From Terrimicrobium sacchariphilum (lineage in GTDB: Bacteria > Verrucomicrobiota > Verrucomicrobiia > Chthoniobacterales > Terrimicrobiaceae): 64,000 bases of DNA. The translations under genes and the position numbers were made by a program. The notes below the pieces were generated by a model. It was given only the letters and a program-made list of their open reading frames with translations. It was not told the origin of the DNA and did not search any database. The stretch lies in NCBI RefSeq assembly GCF_001613545.1, contig NZ_BDCO01000002.1:2356001-2420000 (forward strand), written 5' to 3'. Position 1 is the first letter of the stretch. Each line of letters opens with the position of its first letter. Below are positions 44,203 through 57,404 of the stretch, piece by piece.

Positions 44203-47200
44203 CTACGTAACCGATGAGACGTCAGCCTTGGGGCGTCGCGCCACGATGTACCGGGCGATGCTCGCTTCGAGATCGGCTTTACGGTAGGGCTTCGTCAGGT
44301 AGTCGTTCATTCCCGCGATTTGGCATTTTAGCCGATCGTCGGGCATTGCGGCGGCCGTGAGGGCGGATATCCAGGTTTTCTTTCCTGCGGCTCGCAGGCG
44401 GGCGGTCGTTTCAAATCCATCCAGACCGGGCATCTGCACATCCATGAAAATCAGGTCATATTCCTCACGTTCACACGCTTCAAGGCACTCGAAACCATCC
44501 CCGACCAAGGTGGCGGAATATCCAAGGGACAGGAGCATGCGCGAGATCACCTTGCGATTGATGGCATTGTCTTCCGCCACGAGGATCTTCAAGGAGGGAT
44601 GGGCGGCGAGTTCTGTCTTGGCGTCTCGCGCTACAGGCGTTGCCACAGGTTCGCTCTCCGGCGTTTCCGTCAGCTTCAATGGCAGGGTGAAGGAGAAACA
44701 GGACCCGCGTCCGGGTTCGCTCATGACGGTGAGTTTCCCTCCCATGAGCTCTACGACACGGGCCGATATGGCGAGGCCGAGCCCTGTCCCGCCGTAGCGT
44801 CGAGTGGTCGAGGAGTCTGCCTGGCTGAAAGGCTTGAAAAGGCGAGCCAACGCATCCTTGTCGATGCCGATGCCCGAGTCGAGGATCTCGATCTTGATGT
44901 GATCGGGACGGTCCGAAGGGGGGGCGCTCTCGGCCGGAGTCACGCGGAGTTCCACCCAGCCGCGCTCCGTGAATTTGACCGCATTGCCGACAAGGTTGAG
45001 CAACACCTGCCGGAACCGGGTGCTGTCTCCCAGGATTTGATCTGGCACCTTGGGATCGATCTGTGCCGAAAGGGCGATCTCCTTGGCGATGGCCGTAGGC
45101 AGATTCAGGCTGATAACCTCCGAGGCGCATTGGCGGATCGAGAACGGGCGGTGCTCCAGTTCCACCCGGCTGCTTTCCATCTTGGAAAAATCGAGAATGT
45201 CATTCAGCAGTCGCAGCAGGGTATCTCCGCAGCCTTTCACCGTTTCCACATATTCCCTTTGCAGCTCGGTCAGCGTGGTTTCTCCGAGCAATTGGGCGAA
45301 TCCGATGACGCCATTCATGGGCGTGCGGATTTCATGGCTCATGACCGCAAGGAACTCGCTCTTGGCGCGATCTGCCGCCTCCGCCGCCTCCTTGGCTGCA
45401 ATGATCTCCTGCTCGGCTTTTCTCCGTGCGGTAATGTTGGTCAAGGTCCCGCTGATACCCGTCTGGCGGCCGGTCGAGTCGTAACGCTGACGCCAGTCGG
45501 CCTCGACCCATATCTCAATGCCTGTCGATCCGACGATGCGGAACGGAGCGGTATCCGGTTTGCCGCCATTCCATGCTCGCAGGACACGTTCCCTATCCTC
45601 CGGCCAGATAAACGGATCGATCGGTCGTCCGAGACAGTTGGTGATTCGGTAGCCGGTGTTTTCCTCCCAGGCGGGATTGAGGAACATCCAGTGCCCGTTC
45701 TGATTTGTCTGAAAGACGATCTGATCCAGCCCTTCGACGAGTTCGCGGTATTTTTTCTCGCTAAATGCCAACTCTCTTTGTGCGTGCTTGATCTTCCGGA
45801 GATCGTGCCAGACGACCAGCATGATTTCCTCGCCCGCGATGGTGAGGTGGGTATTGGTGACATCGACCGGGATCAATTCGCCGGAAATGTGCTTTTTGTA
45901 GCTTTCGAATCGGTGCAGCCCGCGGAACACCGTGGTGTCCCAGGAGGCGGTCTCATCGAGATCAGGCCAGTGGGTGGCCAGTGGTTGCCGGAGCACGTCG
46001 GCCTTTGTCTCCAGGCCGAGCATCTCGACGGTTGCCTGATTGCAATCGATGACCTTGTGGCGAGCGACCAGCATATGCGGGTCGGTGGATGCTTCAAAGA
46101 CTGTCCGAAAACGCTCGTCGCTCACCTTTCGCTGCGTGACGTTGAGGAGAGTGCCGTCGACCAGCAGCGGAGCGCCTGCCGAATCTCGCAAGATGACGCA
46201 ACGGTCGTGAAGCCAGAGGTAGTGTCCGTCGGCATGGCGGAAGCGATACTCCCCATCATAGGAGTTTGCTTTGCCTTTTACTGCCGCCATGAATGCGGTC
46301 ACTTCGCGCGCACGGTCGTCAGGATGGAGGAAGCCGAACCACTCTTCCGTCTTTTGCGGCATCTCGCCGGGTTTATAGCCGAGAAGGACTTCGGTTTCTC
46401 CTTCCCAGAGGATTTCGTCGCGGCGTTGATCGGTGGCAAAGTTATGCCGGTAGATAATCTGTCCCAGGGATTGGATGACGCGCCGGTCGCGCTCTTCCAA
46501 GTCGGCCTTTTCCTTGGTTGCCTGCCATTTTGCCTGTTCGTGACGCCGAGCCTGTCGGGCATGCCACCAGACGAGCACGCCCAGCAGCATTCCGGTCAAG
46601 GCGGAGATCACCGAGGAAAGGAAACCGGTCTTCTTCAGGTCCGAGAGTCGGCTCTCATAATCGGCCACGCTCATATCGATCCCGAGCGAAGCGACAACCT
46701 TCCCCTGCGAGTCCCGGATGGGGGCGAGTGCCGAGAGGAACGTGCCGTATTCATCGGTGAACGCCTTTTGGCTGACAAAGTTTTGCCCCTTTCTTACAGC
46801 CTGTACCTCGGCTGCATCCTCATTCGGCGAGAAGCTGCTGTAAGGTTCCAGAAAGCCGGATGGCTTCATGGGGCGGGAGAACTGGAGTGCTTTCGCGGAG
46901 GTAGCCGTATCGAGGACGAAGTAGAGCTGCCCGTCCTTTTCGACGAGAGTGTAGAGGTAGGCGATTTCCGGCGCCCTCCGGTGAAATTTCACCAGAGGAG
47001 CAATGAGTTTCTCATAGGCTGCCGGATCGACCTTTCCGTTCTGCACCATTTCCTCGTGGGCATCGCCATCCACCAAACCTGCTGCGGTTCGAGCGGTTCG
47101 CTCCAGGCTGTCCTTGATCGTGATGCGCTGCTGGCGCAGCGCCTCGATATCCATCAGGAGAAGGCTCGACAGTGCGATGACAAACACGGCGAGTCCCGCC

Positions 47201-51705: not shown

Positions 51706-51786
51706 CGGCGTGAAGGGAAGGCCTGGTCTCGCCCTCCATTTCACTTGCCGCGTCTGGACTTTCCTCGCTTTAGTACGGCTCGCCCA

Positions 51787-52890
51787 ATGAAGAGCGTCCT
51801 GCGTTTTCTCATCTTTGTCGTTATTCTCTTCGGAGCGGTGCTGCTGCTGTACTTTACTCGCACGAAGTCTGCGACGTCTGCCGGTACCACGACACCGGTA
51901 GGGACGACTCATTATTCCGCCCTGGAGGCTGTCGACCGGGAGTTTACCGATCTCGTTTCCCATGTGCTTCCGTCGGTCGTCAGCATTACGGCCATCCCGG
52001 CCGATACGACCAATCCCCGCATCCAGTACCTGCGGAGCCTCTTCGGCTTTCAACCCGGTGCGACACCTCCTCAGCTCGGCTCCGGCGTGATTGTATCCCC
52101 CGAGGGGCATATCGTGACAAATTTTCACGTGATTCAAGGTGCTGGTTCTGCCGAGGTGACCCTTAACGATGGGCGCGTCCTGCCTGCGAAGTTCCTGGGC
52201 GCGGACATCCCTTCCGACATCGCCATCCTTCAGATCTCTCCGGAAAACATCTCGCCCATCGCCTGGGGAAACTCCGATGATGTCAAGGTCGGCCAGATGG
52301 TATTTGCGGTGGGAAATCCGCTGGGTCTCCAGGAAACCGTCACCCAGGGAATCATCAGTGCCCGCGGTCGCCGCGCTGCCAGCGAGGCGGCCAATGAGTT
52401 TTTCCAGACGGATGCCGCCATCAATCGCGGCAACTCCGGAGGTCCTCTGGTCAGTCTCCGTGGTGAGCTGATCGGCATTAATAACATGGTTGCTGCCCAG
52501 ACGCAGACCCAGGGAATCGCTTTTTCGATCCCGGCAAATACTGTTCGCCGGGTTTTTGAAAGTATCCGGGATCATGGACGCTTTATCCGCCCGTGGTTCG
52601 GCGTTTCGACCCTTCCGCTTTCGCCCATGATCGTGCGCCAGCTCAATCTGCCGGACGACATTACCGGGGCTCTCGTCCAGGTCACCCAGACGGATTCCCC
52701 GGCGGAAAAGGCCGGTCTCGAACCCGGCGATGTCATCGTGGGGTACGGTGGTAAGCCGGTTCGCGACGCGGCAGACCTCCGTAGCCGGGTGGTCGACACC
52801 CCGATCGGCGATACGGTGGAGATCAAAGTACGGCGTGGCGGACAGATTATTCCCTTGAAAGTCACCATCGCCCCGGAGCCCGGGAGCTGA
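51787..52890 (+). CDS. HtrA/DegS-like trypsin-type serine protease with one PDZ domain
   Basis: 367 residues from ATG 51787. An N-terminal membrane anchor (about 5-22) and a short linker precede a trypsin-like domain with triad H114 (TNFHVIQG), D144 (SDIAILQI) and S217 (RGNSGGPLV). One PDZ domain follows (about 262-360, with LEPGDVIVGYGGKPV). One PDZ plus an anchor matches DegS rather than DegP, indicating regulated or envelope-stress proteolysis in the periplasm. It lies 64 bases upstream of the three coupled genes and may be co-transcribed with them. Confidence 0.93.
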   Translation: MKSVLRFLIFVVILFGAVLLLYFTRTKSATSAGTTTPVGTTHYSALEAVDREFTDLVSHVLPSVVSITAIPADTTNPRIQYLRSLFGFQPGATPPQLGSGVIVSPEGHIVTNFHVIQGAGSAEVTLNDGRVLPAKFLGADIPSDIAILQISPENISPIAWGNSDDVKVGQMVFAVGNPLGLQETVTQGIISARGRRAASEAANEFFQTDAAINRGNSGGPLVSLRGELIGINNMVAAQTQTQGIAFSIPANTVRRVFESIRDHGRFIRPWFGVSTLPLSPMIVRQLNLPDDITGALVQVTQTDSPAEKAGLEPGDVIVGYGGKPVRDAADLRSRVVDTPIGDTVEIKVRRGGQIIPLKVTIAPEPGS

Positions 52891-52954: not shown

Positions 52955-53995
52955 GTGTCGACTGCCACCCCTCATCCTCCCTTACCCAAGCAGCCTTTGG
53001 GGAAGACGTTTACCGTCGCGATTTCTCTTCTGGGGCTCCTTGCCATTGTCCAGTTGCTCGCGGTGATTCTTCATTTTGGCCCCATGGTAGGGCAACAGAT
53101 CAGTGATACGGCGCTCGCCGCCTCGCGGCAGAGTGAATCCCGGGCGTCCACTGCCTCTCCTGCCCCTTCTCAGGCGGACCTTCCCCCGTCCCAGTCGACC
53201 AAGGCCCCGGCCATTTCTGCTACGGATGGTCAGCAGGTGAGGGACCTTTGTGATGAAGCCGCGGGCAAACTTCGGGTAGGTGACTATGACGCTGCATTGA
53301 AAAGTCTGGATGAGGCAGAGGCCATCGTCCCGGGCGATCCCACGGTGCTTTGGCTCAAGGCCAAGGCGTTCGAGGGTTCCGACCAGCCCGGCGAGGCATT
53401 GGCTGCCCTGGAGGCGGCTTCGCGGTATCCCGATCTCCCTCCTCAAGTGCGGGCCAACCTTCAGAAGGATATGAACCGTCTCTCCCAGTTGGTCGATGCC
53501 GCACCGAGTGCTCGCGCGCGCCCGGCTCAACCCTCCGCTCTGGAGTCCGGCGGTGAGCAGGAACTGCGGGAAAACGGCCTCCAGCCGGGCTCCTCGCTCG
53601 GCATAGTTGATATCCGACTGCGCGATGTGAAAGTGGGCATCAAGGGGCTCAAGGTTGCGGTAAAGGCTCGCCCGGGTTCCACGATCAACGTCAAGGACGT
53701 CAAGCTCCTCGCCTTTTTCTATGAGCAAACGGAGGATGGTGAGATCCAACTGACAGAATCCAAGGTCGTACCCCAATGGCTCAGCCCTCCGATCGACTGG
53801 GCGGGAAATGACTTTGAATTGCTCGAGCTTCAATACACGACGCCCGAGGCCAGTGGCGACACCACCGGTCGCAAATATTTCGGCTACGTCGTAGGTATTT
53901 ACTATAACAACGAACTGCAGGATTTCCGCGCCGACCCAGGCAAGCTCGCGAAAGACTTCCCCCTTCCCCTCTATCTTAAGCAAGGCAACGAATGA
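52955..53995 (+). CDS. Membrane-anchored TPR-like protein of unknown function
   Basis: 346 residues from GTG 52955 (no in-frame ATG near). One membrane helix at about 21-42 (AISLLGLLAIVQLLAVIL) is followed by a Ser/Pro/Ala-rich linker (about 55-88). A TPR-like helical pair follows (about 95-165, GDYDAALKSLDEAEAIVPGD), then a C-terminal beta-rich domain of about 140 residues (VDIRLRDVKVGIKGLKVAVK, YFGYVVGIYYNNELQ). The C-terminal domain is not one I recognise. Its stop overlaps the start of the REC-SUMF1 fusion gene (ATGA), so the two are translationally coupled. Topology should place the bulk outside the cytoplasm. Confidence 0.78.
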   Translation: MSTATPHPPLPKQPLGKTFTVAISLLGLLAIVQLLAVILHFGPMVGQQISDTALAASRQSESRASTASPAPSQADLPPSQSTKAPAISATDGQQVRDLCDEAAGKLRVGDYDAALKSLDEAEAIVPGDPTVLWLKAKAFEGSDQPGEALAALEAASRYPDLPPQVRANLQKDMNRLSQLVDAAPSARARPAQPSALESGGEQELRENGLQPGSSLGIVDIRLRDVKVGIKGLKVAVKARPGSTINVKDVKLLAFFYEQTEDGEIQLTESKVVPQWLSPPIDWAGNDFELLELQYTTPEASGDTTGRKYFGYVVGIYYNNELQDFRADPGKLAKDFPLPLYLKQGNE

Positions 53996-56481
53996 AAATT
54001 TTGATCGTAGACGATGAGCTCGGATTAGCGTCCGGGCTGGCAGGTTGGTTGACAGAAAATGGCTGGCCTCAGCCCGGCGTGGCAACCAATGCCGACGAAG
54101 CCACCGCCTGGGTAGATCAACAAGGCCGCCTGGACGTCCTGGTGACCGATGTCGTGATGCAGCCGACGGATGGGTTTACCCTGCGGGAAACCCTGCAAGC
54201 CCGTTTCCCAAAGCTCAAGGTAGTCTTCATTTCCGGCTACGACCTGAGCGATTACGGACCACGCATGGAAGGGGCTCGTTTCCTGCCCAAGCCTGTTTCC
54301 GGCTACGACATTGACGGAGCGATCCGCGCTCTCTTTGAACAGCCAGCGCCTGTTGTCGCGCAACCTGTGGCTGCACCGACGCCAGTGACCCCGGCCGTTG
54401 CTCAGCCTGCGCCGGTCGCCGCACAGCCGACGCCCGTCGTCGCGCAAGCTGCTCCCGCGGCCGCCCCGGTTGGCGCAGTCGGTACGGCAGGCGCTCCGGT
54501 CGGTGCGAAGGTTGCCTCAGTCGCGGCGAAGGCCGCAACCCCTACGCCAACGCCGGTTGCTTCGCCGAGACCCGTTGCCGCCGCTGCGACGCCTGTCGCT
54601 GCCGCCGCTCCCAAGGCCGTCGCCGCAGCAGCCGCTCCGCAGGCGGTTGCTCCCACTGCCGGACAGCCGGTCGTCGCCAAACTTTCCGCTGCTCCGAAAG
54701 TCGCAGCCGCTCCGCAGGCCAAGCCTGCCGCAGTCGCAGCCAAGGCCGGAGCTCCACGTCCTGCCGCCGCCGCTCCGGCGGGAGCAGGCGCCCGCCCGGC
54801 AGCCGCCGCATCTCCCGCTGTTCCAATCGCCCAGCCGGCGGATAATTCCGAGGTGGAACTCCCGGCAGATCAATTTGTCGGTACCGCGGTAGGCAATTAT
54901 CAGGTCGAAGCCAAGATTGGGCAGGGTTCGCGAAGCGGCATTTATCGAGCGCAGCAGACCAATATCGGTCGACCGGTCCGACTCTACATCCTGGAGCCGG
55001 AGCGTGCCCACGATCAGGAGGAGGTGAAGAGCTTTATCTCCGATGCGAGCGTGAAGGCCAATGTTTCCCACCCGTATATCTTCGCGGTATATGAGGCGGG
55101 ACAGTCAAATGGCTCATACTTCTACTCTTGCGAATATGTTCCCTGCCGCTCTCTAAAGCAGATCATTCAGGCCGGCCAGTTTCTGGACGAGGCGACCGCC
55201 GTGCAGGCCATGAAGGTCACCGCCGAAGTGCTTGCGTACTTTGAGAAGGAGAAGATTTCGCACAATCTCATCGGAGAAAATACCGTGCTGATCGGGGAAA
55301 AGAACAAGCCCCGCATCGCGAACATCGCCACCTATCACCCAGAGGCAACCTTCGACATGAAGCGCGAAATGGTGGAGATCGGGCGCGTATTTGCCGCCGT
55401 TCTCCCGGAGCAGTCCCAGGCTTTGGGTATTCGTGCCCTTGCCGTCGGTCTGGCCGATGGCTCGAGGGAGTTCCCAACCTGGCAGGCGCTCATCGATGCC
55501 GTCACGGCATTGGAACCGAAGGTTGCTCCTCAGGATGCCTACAAGCTCGATGCCCAGGAGCGTGCGGCGATTCGCATGGTCGAGGAGGCAAAGAAGCGCC
55601 AGAAGCGCGGCATGTACATCAGTACGGCTGTTTCCCTGACTCTGCTGGCGGTTGCCCTTGGCGTGGTTTACTTCTTCATCTCGGGTTCAAATACCAAGGG
55701 TACGGACTTCAACAAGATGATCGAGATTCCGGCCGGGGAGTTTGTCTATCAGGATGGACAAAAGGAGACGCTGCCGACCTTCTACATCGATGAGTATGAG
55801 GTCACGATCGGCCAGTATGCGAAATTCCTTGAGTATCTGAAGGCGCACCCCGACGAGGCCACAAAGTTTGATCATCCAGATCAACCCAAGGGCAAATCGC
55901 ACAATCCCGAGAAATGGGCCGATGAGGATCTGCCGACCGGCTGGATGCCTGGCTACTATACGCGTGCCAAACGGTGGGGCAAATATCACGACGCCAAGCT
56001 CGACGTGAACAGCCCTGTCTTCGGTGTGGATTGGTATGACGCCTACGCATACGCCAAATGGAAAGGTCATCGTCTGCCAACGGAGAAGGAATGGGAAAAG
56101 GCGGCTCGCGGGACGCAGGGATTTCTCTATCCGTGGGGCAACGATCCGGATAACAAAAAGGTCAACAGCGGTCTCGATACCAATCCTGATCCCTCAAAGG
56201 GCGGAGAAATTGATGGTTGGGATCGATGGAGCCCTGTGGATGCGGTCAAGACCGATAAAAGTCCCTTCAATGTCTACGGAATGGGTGGAAACGTTTCGGA
56301 ATGGACTGCTACCTTCGACGTCGATCCGATGCTGCCGAGCCAGAAAGTCCCTGTACTCCGTGGCGGCAACTGGCGTACCCCCGACTACAAGCTGACCCGT
56401 CGTATTCTCAAGTTAAGTGAAATTCAGAATGACGAGGCGCTTGGATTCCGTACCGTATCGGATACACCTCCCGCCAAATGA
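53992..56481 (+). CDS. Receiver-linker-pseudokinase-TM-SUMF1 fusion protein
   Basis: 829 residues. REC domain (1-117) with D7/D8, phosphoacceptor D53, S81 and K100 intact. An Ala/Pro/Val-rich linker spans about 118-285. A protein-kinase-like domain (about 296-530) keeps the Gly-loop (IGQGSRSGIY) but has lost the catalytic residues. The VAIK Lys position is Tyr, HRDLKPEN reads SHNLIGEN with D replaced by N, and DFG reads NIA, so it is a pseudokinase. A membrane helix lies at about 541-563 after basic KKRQKRG. A SUMF1/FGE-like domain (about 571-829) shows RLPTEKEWEKAARG, GNVSEWT and VLRGGNWRTPD, without the catalytic cysteines of formylglycine-generating enzyme. Receiver and pseudokinase should be cytoplasmic, SUMF1 outside. 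Confidence 0.88.
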   Translation: MKILIVDDELGLASGLAGWLTENGWPQPGVATNADEATAWVDQQGRLDVLVTDVVMQPTDGFTLRETLQARFPKLKVVFISGYDLSDYGPRMEGARFLPKPVSGYDIDGAIRALFEQPAPVVAQPVAAPTPVTPAVAQPAPVAAQPTPVVAQAAPAAAPVGAVGTAGAPVGAKVASVAAKAATPTPTPVASPRPVAAAATPVAAAAPKAVAAAAAPQAVAPTAGQPVVAKLSAAPKVAAAPQAKPAAVAAKAGAPRPAAAAPAGAGARPAAAASPAVPIAQPADNSEVELPADQFVGTAVGNYQVEAKIGQGSRSGIYRAQQTNIGRPVRLYILEPERAHDQEEVKSFISDASVKANVSHPYIFAVYEAGQSNGSYFYSCEYVPCRSLKQIIQAGQFLDEATAVQAMKVTAEVLAYFEKEKISHNLIGENTVLIGEKNKPRIANIATYHPEATFDMKREMVEIGRVFAAVLPEQSQALGIRALAVGLADGSREFPTWQALIDAVTALEPKVAPQDAYKLDAQERAAIRMVEEAKKRQKRGMYISTAVSLTLLAVALGVVYFFISGSNTKGTDFNKMIEIPAGEFVYQDGQKETLPTFYIDEYEVTIGQYAKFLEYLKAHPDEATKFDHPDQPKGKSHNPEKWADEDLPTGWMPGYYTRAKRWGKYHDAKLDVNSPVFGVDWYDAYAYAKWKGHRLPTEKEWEKAARGTQGFLYPWGNDPDNKKVNSGLDTNPDPSKGGEIDGWDRWSPVDAVKTDKSPFNVYGMGGNVSEWTATFDVDPMLPSQKVPVLRGGNWRTPDYKLTRRILKLSEIQNDEALGFRTVSDTPPAK

Positions 56482-57404
56482 CGAAATTTCGGTATTGGCT
56501 CATCGCCATCTGCCTCTGGGCCGCGCTTAGTCCGTTGTCGGCCCAGATCCTGGTCGACATCAAGTTCAAACGCAATTTGTACGTCGTCTACGAGCCGATC
56601 ATTTGCACTGTCACGATCACGAACCAAAGCGGACGCTCGCTGACTCTCGCGGATACTCCGAAAAACCAGTGGTTCAGCTTTCAGATTGAGACGGGGCAGG
56701 GCCGGCCAATACCGCCGATCGATCCCTATTATGAGAATCAACCGCTCGTCCTGCCGGCGGGCGAAAAAGTCGTGCGAGCCATTAATCTCACGCCGCTCTT
56801 TCCGCTCGGCGAGTTTGGCACGTATCGGGTGAAAGGGGCGGTCTACTCGGAGGAGCTGAAACAATATTTCTCCTCTCCAATTCTTAATATCGAGATCACG
56901 GAGGGGCGCCTGCTCTGGAGTGATACGGTCGGAGTGCCGGAGGGCGCGGGTGCAGGCAAGACGCGCCGGGTTTCCGTTCTGGCTCATCGCCTGCCGAGCA
57001 CGAGCATGCTTTACCTGAGGGTGGAGGATGCCGATGCAGGAGTCATCTATTGCACGACTCAACTGGGTAGGTTCATCGCCTTCAATAATTCGGATATCGA
57101 GCTGGATGGTTCGAACAACATTCACATCCTGCAAAACACCGCTCCCAAGGCCTTCCTCTATTCTCAATTCGACATCAATGGAAAGCTGGTCAACCAGCAA
57201 GGCTACCAGGCCGGAGCGCAGCGCCCGATTCTGGTGCGTTCTCAAGGTGTTGTATCCGTCAGCGGCGGCATGGAGTACGATCCGCGCGCGACCCCGCCCG
57301 AGAAGCAGCTTCCCAAGCTGGGCGACCGGCCCGTACCGCTGCCTACTCCGCAGACTGCGCCGACGCCGGAAGACAAGCGACCGGAGAACCTGCTTTCGCG
57401 ATAA
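56478..57404 (+). CDS. Secreted hypothetical protein coupled to the SUMF1 fusion
   Basis: 308 residues with a signal peptide, MTKFRYWLIAICLWAALSPLSAQ. The mature part is beta-rich with an Ig-like opening (LVDIKFKRNLYVVYEPIICT) reminiscent of a 'BatD/oxygen tolerance'-like or CARDB-like strand pattern, but I do not assign a family. The C-terminal 50 residues are Pro-rich (LPTPQTAPTPEDKRPEN). It overlaps the fusion gene by ATGA and ends the three-gene coupled set. It may act with the extracytoplasmic SUMF1 domain. Confidence 0.78.
   Translation: MTKFRYWLIAICLWAALSPLSAQILVDIKFKRNLYVVYEPIICTVTITNQSGRSLTLADTPKNQWFSFQIETGQGRPIPPIDPYYENQPLVLPAGEKVVRAINLTPLFPLGEFGTYRVKGAVYSEELKQYFSSPILNIEITEGRLLWSDTVGVPEGAGAGKTRRVSVLAHRLPSTSMLYLRVEDADAGVIYCTTQLGRFIAFNNSDIELDGSNNIHILQNTAPKAFLYSQFDINGKLVNQQGYQAGAQRPILVRSQGVVSVSGGMEYDPRATPPEKQLPKLGDRPVPLPTPQTAPTPEDKRPENLLSR

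Follow-up and report, generated by a model that had tools for sequence, protein, structure and literature searches.

A transmembrane pseudokinase joined to a SUMF1 fold as the possible centre of a conserved Verrucomicrobiia envelope complex

The 64,000-nucleotide stretch of Terrimicrobium sacchariphilum DNA analyzed here (the window) holds an open reading frame at 53992–56481 (plus strand, ATG start) whose 829-residue product carries a kinase fold stripped of its catalytic residues, joined through a membrane helix to a SUMF1 fold. We judge the chances to be about even that this protein is a non-catalytic transmembrane scaffold/transducer, acting as the central subunit of an envelope complex conserved in the Verrucomicrobiia. 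On comparison of homologous sequences, the conserved core is the pseudokinase–transmembrane–SUMF1 unit together with two co-encoded envelope proteins, with the receiver at the front of the protein lying outside it.

Three Pfam matches, each exceeding its curated cut-off, define the folded parts of the chain: Response_reg (PF00072) at residues 3–103 (47 bits), Pkinase at residues 303–443 (53 bits, covering profile positions 1–140 of 263 only) and FGE-sulfatase at residues 575–822 (137 bits). An AlphaFold2 model of the whole chain, built with 28 related sequences, gives confident structures for all three domains (pLDDT mostly above 90 for the receiver and SUMF1 domains, approximately 90 or higher for the kinase-like domain), with a pTM of 0.40 that renders their mutual placement unreliable. 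The receiver occupies residues 1–115 (53992–54336) and possesses all five residues of the canonical DD, D, T/S, K definition (PMC12632262), namely D7, D8, D53, S81, and K100. It is followed by an Ala/Pro-rich, disordered linker of ~174 residues (116–290, 54337–54861; pLDDT ~30 over residues 119–279), the pseudokinase domain (residues 291–509, 54862–55518), a juxtamembrane and transmembrane helix (residues 517–565, 55540–55686) and the extracytoplasmic SUMF1 (FGE-sulfatase) domain (residues 571–827, 55702–56472). Within the genus, dN/dS is 0.02–0.08 for the receiver, 0.03–0.06 for the pseudokinase, 0.04–0.05 for SUMF1, and 0.07–0.12 for the linker, and all features described for the 829-residue protein are real and under selection. 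This purifying selection, together with conservation throughout the class, rules out a one-genome oddity or a decaying gene. Scans for promoters and terminators gave no signal above shuffled sequence.

The kinase-like region of the model superposes on Mycobacterium tuberculosis PknB with a Z-score of 21.3 (2.5 Å over 208 residues), yet the residues needed for phosphotransfer are gone: the VAIK lysine is replaced by Tyr332, the αC glutamate by Asp351, the HRD aspartate by Leu426 (in SHNLIG), and the DFG aspartate by Asn444 (in RIANIA). The Gly-rich loop is retained in part (GQGSRSG), and the activation segment is deleted in the model, the span from the DFG position at 444 to the next helix at 456 being too short to contain one. 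An active Hanks-type Ser/Thr kinase is thus rejected, the fold being present but Y332, L426, and N444 standing in place of the catalytic residues. The HRD and DFG aspartates are missing from all of the ~55 kinase-like domains that we examined in the family, arguing that the pseudokinase state is old and maintained; the same survey provides no case of an active kinase with shifted motifs. Asparagine occupies the DFG position in 21/21 order-level sequences, and a lysine at the VAIK position is retained in a minority of relatives. The motif loss is specific, since both HRD and DFG are retained by at least four further kinases encoded in this genome. The GLW motif that can stand in place of HRD is absent here (HNL), and the position is varied in relatives.

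A single hydrophobic segment (approximately residues 545–563) lies within the continuous modeled helix 517–565, with six Lys/Arg before it and two after. The segment is clear in 55/57 homologues, 50 of these 55 having more Lys/Arg before than after, and this bias predicts that SUMF1 lies outside the cell, with the receiver and pseudokinase inside. The SUMF1 region aligns to EgtB and human FGE with Z-scores of 24–26 (24.6 for FGE), and to PorK/GldK with a Z-score of 22.7. Despite this match in fold, we reject assignment as a formylglycine-generating enzyme: the catalytic, copper-binding cysteine pair is replaced by Thr796 and Leu801, and the domain has no cysteine anywhere. Identity with GldK/PorK is likewise rejected (66 bits to the NCBIfam GldK model, against an equivalog cut-off of 350), as is a retroelement-diversified SUMF1 protein, a search of the genome for reverse transcriptase (PF00078) giving no match. 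An earlier, sequence-only reading of this gene had described an intact phosphoacceptor receiver at the front, an Ala/Pro linker of some 170 residues, a kinase fold missing its three catalytic signatures, one membrane helix and an external SUMF1 fold without the FGE cysteines; the residues and folds given above bear this layout out (with the outside location of SUMF1 a prediction from charge), and the whole-chain prediction that it called for turned up no sign that the central region might be something other than a kinase fold.

Neither the breadth of the family nor a conserved gene cassette featured in that reading. A search profile made from the pseudokinase–transmembrane–SUMF1 portion matches 117 of 286 sampled Verrucomicrobiia genomes, nearly always as a single copy, and full-length relatives are present throughout the order. 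Across 288 genomes of the phylum we found no full-length member outside the class, generic kinase matches being all that was returned. Matches in a large genome collection are labeled as Chthoniobacterales and other Verrucomicrobiota, with one record labeled as a betaproteobacterium; the nearest (94%) is from “Spartobacteria bacterium LR76”. Two local variations were seen. One f16 genome carries a tandem duplication of the family (locus L164, 4585–10365), in whose second copy the SUMF1 domain and a very weak receiver-like match alone are recognized, and two f24 genomes (loci L185 and L186) have adjacent, separate SUMF1-type genes with no fusion.

The pseudokinase gene is the middle member of a three-gene cassette, sharing a 4-nucleotide ATGA overlap with the gene on each side. 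The upstream partner (52955–53995, plus strand) has a hydrophobic segment near its N-terminus and is predicted to be membrane-anchored; its TPR matches are weak, and its C-terminal half, for which Pfam has no model, is shared throughout the class. The downstream partner (56478–57404, plus strand) has a signal-peptide-like start and is predicted to be secreted, with an Ig-like β-sandwich (residues 22–141) and a second β domain; it matches no Pfam or NCBIfam family. Members of the upstream family directly precede the pseudokinase gene in ~40/60 loci and occur in 81 of the 117 pseudokinase genomes, and those of the downstream family directly follow it in ~25/60 loci and occur in 113 of the 117 (odds ratio 20, P ~ 3e-15, uncorrected for phylogeny). 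The Ig-like protein is more widespread than the pseudokinase, being found in 211/286 class genomes, 98 of the genomes that carry it having no pseudokinase profile match at the cut-off. The order TPR–pseudokinase–Ig-like is retained in distant families, from the window to loci L182–L184 of family f15, genus g32 (a genus that we infer to be Akkermansia-like), and a second set of loci, from genomes partly overlapping the first, displays the same arrangement. Conservation of the pseudokinase with two unnamed partners across the class suggests an undescribed envelope complex, although two observations count against it: the partner genes are non-adjacent in part of the class, and the Ig-like protein occurs in those 98 genomes with no pseudokinase match at the cut-off. 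An HtrA/Deg-type protease with a PDZ domain is encoded at 51745–52890 in the window; several order-level relatives likewise have one immediately upstream, and in L182–L184 one lies close by on the opposite strand.

The sequence-only reading had placed two-component phosphorylation at the head of a relay: a histidine kinase would phosphorylate the receiver, and the signal would reach SUMF1 outside by way of the pseudokinase and the membrane helix. No part of the protein is less well conserved than the receiver. Of 57 homologues, 13 have an intact receiver, 28 a degenerate one (an assignment resting on alignment, these relatives lacking the full five-residue set found in the window protein), and 16 none that was detected. 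Among these 16, some retain a stretch of ~120 residues, possibly an eroded receiver, and one (L140) is a broken open reading frame. On the tree, the distribution of the intact state requires at least five changes. The region in front of the pseudokinase is similarly fluid, a DUF4388 domain taking the place of the linker in several families (for example at L026 and L034), the linker being absent from family f12, and the f15 proteins beginning directly at the pseudokinase. The persistence of the pseudokinase–transmembrane–SUMF1 unit in homologues whose receiver is degenerate or not detected indicates that the conserved function needs no aspartyl phosphate, and, on this distribution, receiver phosphorylation cannot be the core mechanism of the family. 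A disordered linker of this length would also be a poor mechanical coupler between receiver and pseudokinase. The genome has ~47 HisKA matches, none adjacent to the receiver gene; the nearest (around 45172–45366, in a frame of ~1046 residues) is on the opposite (minus) strand at a distance of ~9 kb, and we reject a link to a neighboring histidine kinase on these grounds. As an account of what the protein does, the inside-out relay hence appears unlikely to us, even with the 13 intact receivers and a helix predicted to cross the membrane unbroken in its favor. The part of the proposal that survives is narrower: in the window's own genus, where the receiver is both intact and under purifying selection, its phosphorylation may serve as an input.

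Signal flow in the opposite direction fares no better. SUMF1 could act as a receptor for an envelope ligand, with the pseudokinase passing its state to cytoplasmic partners such as an active Hanks kinase; the positive-inside topology would suit this, HRD and DFG motifs are present in at least four of the genome's kinases, and SUMF1 folds outside the cell can act as ligand-binding scaffolds. We nonetheless found no variable or ligand-specific site in the domain, and the cassette contains no kinase gene, and we regard outside-in reception as doubtful. Some dead-looking kinase folds perform other chemistry, SidJ-mediated glutamylation being an example (PMC12599244), and the partly kept Gly-rich loop and the VAIK lysine of a minority of relatives might be taken to indicate non-kinase catalysis or nucleotide binding here. 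Set against the loss of the lysine, αC glutamate, and both aspartates in the window protein, and the deletion of its activation segment, such an activity seems highly improbable.

We favor the non-catalytic scaffold/transducer over these readings on the strength of the universal pseudokinase state, near-single copy number, gene order, co-occurrence with the partner genes and purifying selection. Inside the cell, the pseudokinase would provide a protein-docking surface, and the long helix would transmit its state across the membrane; on the far side, the SUMF1 fold would bind a partner, most likely the co-encoded TPR and/or Ig-like protein, or else an envelope ligand. The receiver would be an accessory input, phosphorylation by a histidine kinase perhaps tuning assembly where the active site is intact; in most lineages it would be a pseudo-receiver docking module, or is not detected at all. 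Starting from the observed domains, catalytic-residue loss, conservation, and operon and topology signals, we infer complex formation, docking, and any direction of signaling, as we do the function of the protein itself.

The closest parallel in plan is YukC/EssB of type VIIb secretion, a membrane pseudokinase that forms dimers, bears a domain outside the cell and has roles in protein–protein interaction, and which shares with the window protein a cytoplasmic pseudokinase of ~200 residues with degraded motifs and a short activation loop (PMC9600267, PMC12599244). The order of pseudokinase, transmembrane helix and outside domain is also the same, such that a comparable scaffold plan is our best reading of the analogy; the two differ in that the outside domain is all-helical in EssB/YukC and a SUMF1 fold here, and in the receiver and linker in front, the verrucomicrobial host and the gene neighbors. 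In chlamydial Pkn1, as in other kinase–SUMF1 fusions, a domain of the kinase family is linked to one of the SUMF1 type. Pkn1 autophosphorylates and is predicted to be cytoplasmic (PMC5177608), whereas the window protein is without catalytic residues and carries both a receiver and a membrane helix. In type IX secretion, PorK/GldK offers a SUMF1 fold that works in an envelope complex rather than as an FGE, but as a ring lipoprotein with no pseudokinase. Several of the ActPs1–3, GLW, CP1, DYD, and DLHK pseudokinases lack all three motifs and have a C-terminal membrane helix (PMC12599244), the motif that defines the GLW group being absent from the window protein. The text of the 2025 review of bacterial pseudokinases makes no mention of Verrucomicrobia, receivers, or FGE/sulfatase domains (PMC12599244), and a full-text search of the open-licence literature returned no description of a receiver–pseudokinase–transmembrane–SUMF1 architecture. 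By analogy, the protein would fall among the transmembrane pseudokinase scaffolds already known, with the receiver–pseudokinase–SUMF1 architecture apparently new.

At its broadest, the finding would be of a previously undescribed, class-wide envelope machine of the Verrucomicrobiia, with the pseudokinase–SUMF1 protein at its center, two partner families around it, a receiver phospho-switch that has repeatedly decayed and a dead kinase that has been kept; we put this at slightly less than an even chance. A role is known for few of the transmembrane pseudokinases of bacteria. Here, one that is near-single-copy, class-wide, dead in all members examined and accompanied by two co-encoded proteins yields a short list of candidate genes, with which the role of a conserved dead kinase in the envelope can be tested in cultured verrucomicrobia, and the intact, degenerate and absent receivers attached to one effector provide a natural series.
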